Shown here piece by piece: positions 45,814-48,409 of a DNA stretch of 64,000 nt. The translations under genes were made by a program, and so were the position numbers. Under the pieces are notes generated by a model that saw nothing but the letters and a program-made list of their open reading frames with translations, was not told the origin of the DNA and made no database searches. The stretch's first letter is position 1. Each line of letters starts with the position of its first letter. Source of the stretch: Lysobacterales bacterium (GTDB lineage: Bacteria; Pseudomonadota; Gammaproteobacteria; Xanthomonadales; Xanthomonadaceae); assembly GCA_015655355.1 (NCBI GenBank), contig JAATFG010000017.1, forward strand, positions 19,054 through 83,053, given 5' to 3'.

Positions 45814-45887
45814 TGGAGGCCTGGGTCGGAATTGAACCGGCGTACGCGGATTTGCAGTCCGCTGCATGACCACTCTGCCACCAAGCC
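45814..45887 (-). tRNA. tRNA-Cys(GCA)
   Basis: GGCTTGGTGGCAGAGTGGTCATGCAGCGGACTGCAAATCCGCGTACGCCGGTTCAATTCCGACCCAGGCCTCCA. Confidence 0.94.
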
Positions 45888-45939
45888 ATGTCGCGAGCCG
45901 CGGATTATCGCTGATTTGCCGCGGCGCGGGCAAGCCGCG

Positions 45940-45991
45940 TGGTGCCCGGAGAGGGAATCGAACCCTCACTCCCTTGCGGGTGACGGATTTT
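45940..45991 (-). tRNA. 3' half of a split tRNA-Leu(UAA) (copy A)
   Basis: AAAATCCGTCACCCGCAAGGGAGTGAGGGTTCGATTCCCTCTCCGGGCACCA; acceptor strand TCCGGGC complements the 5' half at 47474..47508. Confidence 0.85.
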
Positions 45992-46279
45992 AAGCCACGG
46001 CATGGATTCCGCACCGGGTTCCTCTGTGCTTGGATATGGCTTGCTGTGGCAGGTTTTCCGTAAGGCCAAAAAAGACAGTAAGGCAAGCGAACCACTCGAC
46101 CGTCGGACTGCTGGCCCCCCTCGGTCAGCGCAGAGGGGGTAGCCCCGTCGCCAAACGACCTGAGCGACCGGCCTCGGGGGCTGGCAAGCCTGTGTGATCT
46201 GTGAAGAATCGTGGCGTCGAGGTCGCGAAAGGTCGCGGGAACAACTTGATGGGCGTGCAGCATATGCCGAGCTATTTCG

Positions 46280-46906
46280 TTATCGCGGCAAGGGTTTCGA
46301 CAACCGCGATCCGCGAGGCCACTGGATTAGTACCTCGCAAATAAGCACGGGTGCGATCCAATAGAGCCAGATGCCCGCCGTCACGCCTTCGATACCCAAG
46401 CTGGGAAACGGCGGCACCAGCTGCGCTATGCGGCAGCCGACGAAAGTCCACGTGACGACGTAACTTCGAATGACCCACTCACGATGATTGTCGAATCGTC
46501 GGTTCCAGGCGGCGCGCCACGCCATTGCGGCAAAGACGAGCCATACCATCGCCAAGGTCGCGGTCGCCACGCCGAGGCTGAAGGGCGGGTGGAACGGCCG
46601 CACCGAGAGGCCTAGAGCCGCTAGGGCGCCGACGGTGCCCCCGAGCAGATACGTGTACCCAATGGCTTTATGGGCGCGTCGGAACTTACGTGTCCATCCC
46701 ACGTAGATCGCGGCCGCCCCTGCTGCAAGCATGGCCGTTCCTCCGACGGTGTGCACATACAGGAGGCCATAGTGCCGAAGGTGTTCGCTCGCGCTGCGAA
46801 GCGTCAGTACAGGCCATGCATGGGTCCACCAGATCGCCGCCGAACTCAGCATGGCAAACGTGAGCAGCGCTCCAAAGGTCCACCCACGCGCTTTTGATCT
46901 GTTCAA
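46280..46906 (-). CDS. DUF2306-type multi-pass membrane protein (probable TTG start)
   Basis: Several TM segments; YVGWTRKFRRAHKAIGYTYLLGGTVGALAAL...; His-containing TMs. Confidence 0.75.
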   Translation of the reverse strand: MNRSKARGWTFGALLTFAMLSSAAIWWTHAWPVLTLRSASEHLRHYGLLYVHTVGGTAMLAAGAAAIYVGWTRKFRRAHKAIGYTYLLGGTVGALAALGLSVRPFHPPFSLGVATATLAMVWLVFAAMAWRAAWNRRFDNHREWVIRSYVVTWTFVGCRIAQLVPPFPSLGIEGVTAGIWLYWIAPVLICEVLIQWPRGSRLSKPLPR

Positions 46907-46988
46907 TTCGGGAGACTCAAAAGGCGTAAGGGAAACAGAACAACTCGATGATTCCAGCTACGGCATGCTACAGCCAGATACATCTACT

Positions 46989-47306
46989 TGGTGCCCGAGG
47001 CCGGAATCGAACCGGCATGCCTTTCGGCGAGGGATTTTCTTGCCACTTCGGCTTTCGCCGCCGTCCTGCACATCGCTGGGCGTTCGTGGTCTGGAGCACG
47101 CCTTCACCATAGCCTTGCGGCCGCAGGTGCCCGCCGTCTGCTCTCTACACCTTCCCAAACGAACTGCTTGGGCTTGGCTCGGCGTTGGCTCGGACGCCGG
47201 AGCATCCAGGGCTTTCACCGACTTTGACGGGCTTCACTTCGGACGTTTCCACCCGAAGGCTCAAATTGTTCAAGTCCCTTGTGTCTACCGATTTCACCAC
47301 TCGGGC
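46989..47306 (-). tRNA. tRNA-Leu(UAA) interrupted by a group I intron (copy B)
   Basis: Exons GCCCGAGTGGTGAAATCGGTAGACACAAGGGACTT + AAAATCCCTCGCCGAAAGGCATGCCGGTTCGATTCCGGCCTCGGGCACCA form a perfect class II tRNA when joined. Confidence 0.93.
47039..47271 (-). ncRNA. Group I self-splicing intron (Azoarcus-like, 233 nt) in tRNA-Leu(UAA) anticodon loop
   Basis: Core blocks AACGCCGAGCCAAGC, AAGGTGTAGAGAGCAGACGGCGGGCACCT, GGCTATGGTGAAGGCGTGCTCCAG; P7 GAGCA/TGCTC; P1 CUU/GAG with U.G at 5' splice site; terminal G. Confidence 0.92.
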
Positions 47307-47473
47307 GCAGTGCGATGCGCTGGAAACTCCTGTCTCAGTCCTGTTGGCACCTGGTTGGCCCTTGACTGCCAAGCCAAGCCGCGAAGCTACATCTTCGACG
47401 CCCGCAAGCCGTTGTCACTATTGGCCTTCCGGCAGGGTAACGCAAGCGGAAAGAGCTTGACAAAACTGATTTT

Positions 47474-47508
47474 AAGTCCGCTGTGTCTACCAATTTCGCC
47501 ATCCGGGC
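47474..47508 (-). tRNA. 5' half of split tRNA-Leu(UAA) (copy A)
   Basis: GCCCGGATGGCGAAATTGGTAGACACAGCGGACTT; followed by non-tRNA sequence. Confidence 0.85.
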
Positions 47509-47573
47509 TTGCGCAGGATTCTAATGCCAATCGCCTTGGCGCATCCGCGATGCGTCGGATGCGGCGCATCGGC

Positions 47574-47604
47574 GAAAAAAAAGAGGGCCCGAAGGCCCTC
47601 TTTC
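47574..47604 (-). terminator. Rho-independent terminator downstream of tRNA-Gly
   Basis: GAGGGCC-TTCG-GGCCCTC followed by a T8 run on the minus strand. Confidence 0.88.
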
Positions 47605-47641
47605 GCAATCGGCGCGCTCTTGCGAACGGCGCTTGTGAAAC

Positions 47642-48409
<768 letters not shown>

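Follow-up and report, generated by a model that had tools for sequence, protein, structure and literature searches.

In the Lysobacterales bacterium whose DNA we analysed (a stretch of 64,000 nucleotides, hereafter the window), the host gene for tRNA-Leu(UAA) is parted into two halves by 1,482 bp lying in its anticodon loop, and this insert is almost certainly the remnant of an integrative element whose replacement tRNA took over from the gene that was split. The complete explanation, in which the remnant derives from an integrative and conjugative element (ICE) and the replacement tRNA carries a group I intron inside the attachment core, where it acts as a shield, is very probably correct; the narrower proposal, that shielding is the reason the intron is kept, is somewhat more likely than not. 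Elements that replace a split tRNA are known; an intron acting as a shield, and its wide occurrence, had not been familiar to us.

The divided tRNA-Leu(UAA) gene

Both host halves lie on the minus strand and, when joined, are recognized by ARAGORN as an 87-nt tRNA-Leu(taa), with 7 of 7 acceptor-stem pairs and 5 of 5 anticodon-stem pairs formed between them. Within the 1,569-nt stretch the 9-bp sequence CTTAAAATC has exactly two copies, one per junction; it is the recombination core (attL/attR) rather than a target duplication of the transposon type, and each junction holds half a tRNA only, with no functional tRNA rebuilt at either. An earlier note, made from the letters of the window, had described one split tRNA-Leu(UAA) with this spacing and a repeat at both junctions, an insert holding a second, intron-bearing tRNA-Leu(UAA) and a membrane-protein gene, and a position between tRNA-Gly and tRNA-Cys near pgsA; all of these proved accurate. 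The features of the locus are as follows.

47708-48409, minus strand: pgsA (CDP-alcohol phosphatidyltransferase), host landmark
47642-47717, minus strand: flanking host tRNA-Gly(GCC)
47468-47508, minus strand: attL, the 5' half of the resident tRNA-Leu(UAA), pairing with the 3' half and ending in the core CTTAAAATC (47468-47476)
47307-47467, minus strand: left-end spacer of the element, from the core to the inner tRNA
47345-47363, minus strand: two AGGNGCCA-like direct repeats (AAGGGCCA..CAGGTGCCA), candidate arm-type sites of the integrase
46989-47306, minus strand: replacement tRNA-Leu(UAA) (ARAGORN), exon 1 at 47272-47306 and exon 2 at 46989-47038, CCA encoded
47039-47271, minus strand: group I intron of 233 nt at the cyanobacterial position after U34, between CTT and AAAATC of the core, with terminal G and no ORF
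46280-46906, minus strand: DUF2306 predicted membrane protein, 208 aa, with no homologue among the element loci compared
45995-46074, minus strand: right-end arm of the element adjoining attR, about 80 bp, conserved with complete elements; the integrase that follows is deleted here
45940-45994, minus strand: attR, the core CTTAAAATC (45986-45994) and the 3' half of the resident tRNA-Leu(UAA) with CCA
45814-45887, minus strand: flanking host tRNA-Cys(GCA)

The inner tRNA-Leu(taa) has a mature form of 85 nt (ARAGORN); both tRNAs are missed by ARAGORN without its intron mode, and likewise by the Rfam tRNA model. The window intron reaches 32.1 bits against the Rfam model Intron_gpI (RF00028; E 1e-6, computed for the local stretch), which is less than the gathering score of 50; the introns of loci L114 (61.9) and L103 (54.5) exceed that score. 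Its terminal residue is G, as expected of group I, and in a consensus fold of 38 divergent homologous introns 97.4% of cells are paired and 29 of 68 pairs have compensatory (two-sided) changes, the structure having been derived from the same alignment on which pairing was scored. The outer insert was considered as a second group I intron and rejected: it starts with AAAATC, ends with CTT, lacks a terminal G and has no Rfam match.

Among the tRNA loci found in the draft assembly by the Rfam tRNA model there is no second tRNA-Leu(UAA), a possibility that the earlier note had raised; the other tRNA-Leu genes are CAA (two copies), CAG and GAG, and the 1.57-kb query matches only itself in its own draft genome. 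Retention of the spare tRNA in this genome is explained by its being the sole tRNA-Leu(UAA) found. We infer from the sequence that the intron is spliced and that the inner copy alone functions.

The draft comprises 138 contigs with 7.5% contamination (G000), the kind of assembly in which a chimera could arise, as the earlier note had cautioned. Both junctions, however, match independent and mostly cleaner genomes, and the host flanks pgsA, tRNA-Gly and tRNA-Cys are continuous; mis-assembly is therefore very unlikely. The tRNA order in the window (45814-47717) is tRNA-Gly, tRNA-Leu, tRNA-Cys, and in relatives with the cluster it is Gly, Cys, (Gly), Leu; because of this difference, the locus appears to have been rearranged as well.

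Complete elements and empty sites

In a genome of the same genus (G004), positions 1-521 of the query (87% identity) and its right part lie on one contig, 62.6 kb apart. About 180 bp inside the right end, G004 encodes a tyrosine integrase of 401 aa whose domains are Arm-DNA-bind_3, SAM-like and catalytic (Phage_integrase), and the element's interior encodes TrbI, TrbL, a TrbE-type ATPase, a TraG-type coupling protein, peptidase S26, DUF3363 and DUF736 proteins, copper/metal efflux genes and a Tn3 transposase; by its predicted gene content, the element is an ICE. A second, unrelated tyrosine integrase (L054:10101-11090:+), about 150 bp outside attR of G004, suggests a tandem island.

The same integrase lies beside the 3' tRNA half in complete elements of G095, G344, G296, G407, Lysobacter concretionis and P. 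jinjuensis, and also in S. stutzeri KOS6, Ottowia (frame broken), G795 and G797. Complete elements sharing both ends span 23-83 kb; right ends were located at 40.8 kb in Lysobacter concretionis Ko07, 66 kb in Pseudomonas jinjuensis, 68 kb in Stutzerimonas stutzeri KOS6 and 45 kb in Ottowia beijingensis, the species with the broken integrase frame. The order of the module is int, about 180 bp, attP core, about 160 bp and intron-bearing tRNA, with AGGNGCCA repeats on both sides of the core; complete elements have similar repeats close to int at attR, and an alignment of 10 elements shows that the left-end spacer is homologous in all Leu(UAA) elements and has a conserved TTTGTCAAG motif beside the core. 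What remains in the window is the left end with the spare tRNA (46989-47508), about 80 bp from the end of the right arm (45995-46074) and, on the right, the 3' tRNA half. Because only these ends are left of what is a 62.6-kb element in G004, the window holds a decayed element. The DUF2306 gene was tried as shared cargo and dismissed, being present only in the window genome among the loci compared; it is either leftover cargo or a later arrival.

The congeners examined have a contiguous tRNA-Leu(taa), adjoined in most of them by pgsA or the tRNA-Gly/tRNA-Cys cluster. These empty sites, for which the earlier note had proposed a search, uphold its view that DNA entered the anticodon loop and brought a replacement tRNA. 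Its description of that DNA as a small unit does not stand, and where it left the mechanism unknown, the relatives' complete elements supply an intact tyrosine integrase. An origin of the 1.48 kb as a small self-contained mobile unit, or as an intron-based element of the IStron or homing type, would accord with the lack of an integrase: as the earlier note had observed of recombinases, no remnant of one is detectable in the window insert (best tblastn E 0.45). Such an origin is scarcely credible, since complete versions with an integrase and 23-83 kb of cargo have the same two ends, the intron lies within the inner tRNA and is not itself what was inserted, and no transposase or homing endonuclease is encoded in the inserted 1.48 kb.

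We propose that recombination by the tyrosine integrase joins attP to the anticodon loop of tRNA-Leu(UAA) over a short core (CTT/CTTAAAATC). Unlike the ordinary tRNA-targeting islands, this element rebuilds no tRNA and leaves the host gene split and useless, and the complete tRNA-Leu(UAA) carried next to attP would take over, being transcribed, spliced and sufficient. The group I intron lies inside the same core of the spare, where splicing would still yield a normal anticodon loop. A likely advantage of this arrangement is entry into hosts whose tRNA-Leu differs outside the core; the host would in turn depend on the element unless it were precisely excised. In the window genome, later loss of the interior (int and the transfer genes) would have produced the present arrangement.

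Records of other replicons were also compared. On the Cupriavidus megaplasmids pBB1 and p1 (L434 and L435) left ends of such elements persist in decayed form, the intron-bearing tRNA being truncated; many enterobacterial plasmids carry an unrelated intron-bearing tRNA-Leu, and phage records gave no long match. A Leu(CAA) element of about 23 kb (G145; L430-L431) has defence-like cargo, comprising a SMODS nucleotidyltransferase (CBASS-like), a STAND-type NTPase, HEPN, a WYL regulator, an AbiEii-like AAA protein and a Tle1-like phospholipase; none of the ten proteins scanned in it is a phage structural protein.

Recurrence, attachment core and intron

The same architecture is found in Lysobacter, Pseudomonas, Stutzerimonas, Variovorax and Ottowia. 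A scan for the pattern, with one genome per species, gave at least 120 loci and, among the matches listed, 97 usable intron-bearing tRNA genes, of which 22 are preceded, at no more than 600 bp, by a 5' half of the same tRNA; the corresponding counts among the matches listed were 0 of 97 for reversed windows and 1 of 93 for downstream windows. These 22, again among the matches listed, are 11 Leu(UAA), one Leu(CAA), nine Ile(CAU) and one Arg(UCU), two of them (L148 and L163) having been mislabelled by ARAGORN and assigned a type by eye. The outer 5' half lies 199-236 nt upstream (start to start) of the intron-bearing tRNA in ten aligned Leu(UAA) elements, that of the window among them. The element's tRNA is of the type that is disrupted (UAA/UAA, CAA/CAA, Ile(CAU)/Ile(CAU), Arg(UCU)/Arg(UCU)); thus elements that split Leu(CAA) bear an intron-containing Leu(CAA). 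Intact tRNA-Leu matches in beta-proteobacterial hosts were considered as a second UAA copy and discarded, their anticodon being CAA.

Fifteen rejoined split tRNAs form 179 of 180 expected acceptor and anticodon pairs, compared with 162 on average and never more than 175 when partners are shuffled within tRNA type (p 5e-5), which disposes of the objection, anticipated in the earlier note, that the halves might belong to unrelated tRNAs. The mature inner tRNA of the window is 99% identical to the inner tRNA of the Lysobacter and Ottowia elements, and any two inner tRNAs from hosts of different orders have 87-100% identity, compared with 72-86% for the split host tRNAs; to judge from these identities, the inner tRNA travels with the element. 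Canonical tRNA-targeting islands (Islander, PMC4383910) likewise have a tyrosine integrase, an anticodon-loop crossover and a displaced 3' fragment at the far end, so that the window could be read as one of them, its tRNA rebuilt from an element-borne 3' part and its extra 5' fragment mere debris. That reading is very improbable: it predicts a chimera of host 5' and element 3' sequence, whereas here both host halves survive and pair, the target gene is not regenerated, and the complete tRNA is wholly element-borne and nearly identical across hosts.

Leu elements share one integrase beside the 3' half, and Ile and Arg elements hold other Phage_integrase proteins; therefore unrelated integrases use the same design. 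Right ends of Ile(CAU) elements were located in a Comamonas MAG (24 kb), Gulbenkiania mobilis (8.6 kb), beta-proteobacterium AAP51 (31 kb) and Polynucleobacter (22 kb, degenerate). The Ile introns found here presumably resemble the Azoarcus ribozyme.

Most intron-bearing tRNAs elsewhere (in cyanobacteria, on viral contigs and among most pattern matches) lie outside such elements. Many viral contigs in IMG/VR (L302-L421) have group I intron-bearing tRNA genes, 59 of them Leu(UAA); a 2014 review placed phage introns in protein genes only (PMC3984707). Prophage origin was considered for the elements and rejected: viral contigs with the intron pattern give no nested case, and the core lies within 500 bp upstream in 1 of 52 Leu intron-tRNA cases. 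Plasmid pCTX-M3 (L433, NC_004464.2) has at 2490-2800 a complete intron-bearing tRNA-Leu(UAA) of different sequence (GCGGACG..CGTCCGC), which adjoins an AAA-ATPase gene and aac(3)-IId and has 60-80% matches on many enterobacterial plasmids (about 1,280 plasmid records); this tRNA may hint at a chromosomal or element source of that resistance block.

To avoid the bias of an intron search, the integrase rather than the intron was used as query in two orders. An intron-bearing tRNA is present in 10 of 10 evaluable genomes with tRNA-splitting integrases and in 0 of 13 whose integrases all belong to the sister clade, which does not target tRNA (Fisher 9e-7, ignoring kinship, the counts being of non-independent events). 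The ten are seven genomes of the window's order together with G795, G797 and G004, the last being the integrase query's own genome. Eight genomes of the window's order have tRNA-splitting integrases, and all seven that are evaluable have the intron-bearing tRNA; G378 was omitted from the count because attL, the left end, is absent from its assembly. Among 400 genomes of Ottowia's order, G795 and G797 have three tRNA-splitting sites in all, each with an intron-bearing tRNA. G712 (Burkholderiales), with the integrase, a damaged 3' fragment, an intact tRNA-Leu(CAA) and no intron-bearing tRNA, is either not evaluable or a possible exception.

In an integrase tree, the UAA, CAA and TTTTT-type targets form one group each without exception, and 0 of 200 shuffles were as good. 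Integrases of the sister clade insert at TTTTTCAT, TTTTTTAT or TTTTTTGT, and those that split tRNA-Leu insert in the anticodon loop. The sister-clade sites (L098, L224-L232, L438-L447; for example L225, near the integrase start) are T-runs, mostly of rho-independent terminator hairpins; the attB of the Tn4371 family (TTTTTCAT and variants) appears to be such a terminator T-run. G386 has two copies of the intron-bearing tRNA (L092, L086, L067), and the attR of one element copy is not a tRNA half: its border is CTTACAATC, which lies outside any tRNA and is apparently a secondary site of attachment, narrowing strand exchange to CTT(A).

The intron, between CTT and AAAATC, falls within the 9-bp attachment core, and because it interrupts the core, the DNA of the spare tRNA would not serve as an attB. 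The attB that was used in G797, namely the host tRNA that was split, is 96% identical to the inner exons, and its first 49 nt, including the anticodon arm, are identical to them. The intronless exons therefore equal a used attB, and a spare lacking the intron would offer the integrase a valid target beside attP. The G797 integrase is 99.75% identical to that of G004, a member of another order, which indicates recent long-range transfer. A likely advantage of the intron is protection of the spare, about 200 bp away, from integrase-mediated recombination with attP or attL. If attL recombined with a spare lacking the intron, the 5' half of the host tRNA would be joined to the 3' half of the spare; as this product has the layout of a canonical island, the intron would keep the two layouts apart.

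The intron might instead be a passive passenger, a neutral hitch-hiker already present in the captured tRNA when only the replacement tRNA was needed. Its position is well known and often occupied by group I introns in tRNA-Leu(UAA), intron-bearing tRNA-Leu(UAA) also occur outside elements, and the replacement tRNAs of mycobacteriophages function without an intron (PMC10865867). We consider this possible but the weaker reading, because no evaluable case identified through the integrase lacks the intron, because it recurs in the replacement Leu(CAA), Ile(CAU) and Arg(UCU) of unrelated elements, always at the position in the anticodon loop that is the core, and because introns are rare in the surveyed order (matches in 28 of 398 genomes of the window's order, elements included). 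Shielding is not obligatory, given the intronless life style of the mycobacteriophages; it may be an exaptation, given that most intron-bearing tRNAs lie outside such elements; and the intron, which occurs elsewhere for other reasons, could simply have been carried along.

Relation to known systems

The closest parallel is tRNA-dependent lysogeny, in which a tRNA borne by a mycobacteriophage replaces the split host tRNA (Guerrero-Bustamante & Hatfull 2024, PMC10865867); its authors expected tRNA replacement elsewhere, and no intron is discussed in that text. Both systems have a tyrosine integrase, a short (~10 bp) core in the anticodon loop, a host tRNA that is not rebuilt and a supplied tRNA of the same type, and the CTT core is common to mycobacteriophage Fionnbharth and the elements described here. 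The phage tRNA is intronless and its role was genetically tested, whereas our elements are described from sequence; they are ICEs or islands of Proteobacteria, with the tRNA in an int-attP end module, a group I intron in the core and several tRNA types, and they are not temperate phages, as the conjugation genes of G004 and the defence-type cargo of G145 indicate.

Ryan et al. (2009, PMC2789088), in a paper that mentions neither tRNA nor intron, define the Tn4371 family by an integrase more than 70% similar to IntTn4371 and by maintenance and transfer genes like those of Tn4371. Like these ICEs, our elements have trb/TraG transfer genes (with DUF3363 and DUF736 in G004) and metal-resistance cargo, and their integrases are 60-69% identical to those of the sister clade, which is assigned to Tn4371 by attB sequence only: it uses exactly the Tn4371-family sites TTTTTCAT/TTTTTTAT/TTTTTTGT (PMC2789088). 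Unlike Tn4371-family ICEs, our elements split tRNA-Leu, carry an intron-bearing tRNA and use no TTTTTCAT-like site.

At a Caldiarchaeum tRNA-Thr locus, a 5' fragment lies upstream of an intron-bearing tRNA with a recombinase between them, and an element was proposed as carrier of the intron (Sugahara et al. 2012, PMC3293823). The 5' fragment upstream of an intron-bearing tRNA is common to both systems; the Caldiarchaeum case differs in its archaeal, protein-spliced intron, its single locus, its canonical regeneration model and the lack of a replacement role or a shield for any tRNA that the element itself carries. In resident genes, tRNA-Leu(UAA) and tRNA-Ile(CAU) are known to contain group I introns (review PMC3984707); these have the same position and core as those reported here, which are tied to integrative elements. 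The open-access literature searched contains no account of group I introns in replacement tRNAs and no paper that joins tRNA group I introns with integrative elements, which is no proof of novelty.

These findings offer a testable function for bacterial tRNA introns. That tRNA introns block integration was proposed for archaea by Randau and Soll (cited in PMC3293823 and PMC4390854), an idea that had lacked direct evidence; here intron, core and integrase occur in one module, and a used attB can match the protected exons. They also extend tRNA-replacing integration from phages of Actinobacteria to conjugative elements in at least two proteobacterial orders, and explain how one integrase enters hosts with different tRNA-Leu sequences. 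The combination of a split tRNA and an intron-bearing tRNA is a simple signature for mapping such elements, which regeneration-based tools are designed to miss. There is perhaps an even chance that the group I introns of proteobacterial tRNAs persist largely as element shields, across several integrases and at least four tRNA types, thereby placing an essential tRNA under element control. After decay of the element, as in the window, a bacterium can keep an essential tRNA of foreign, intron-bearing origin.
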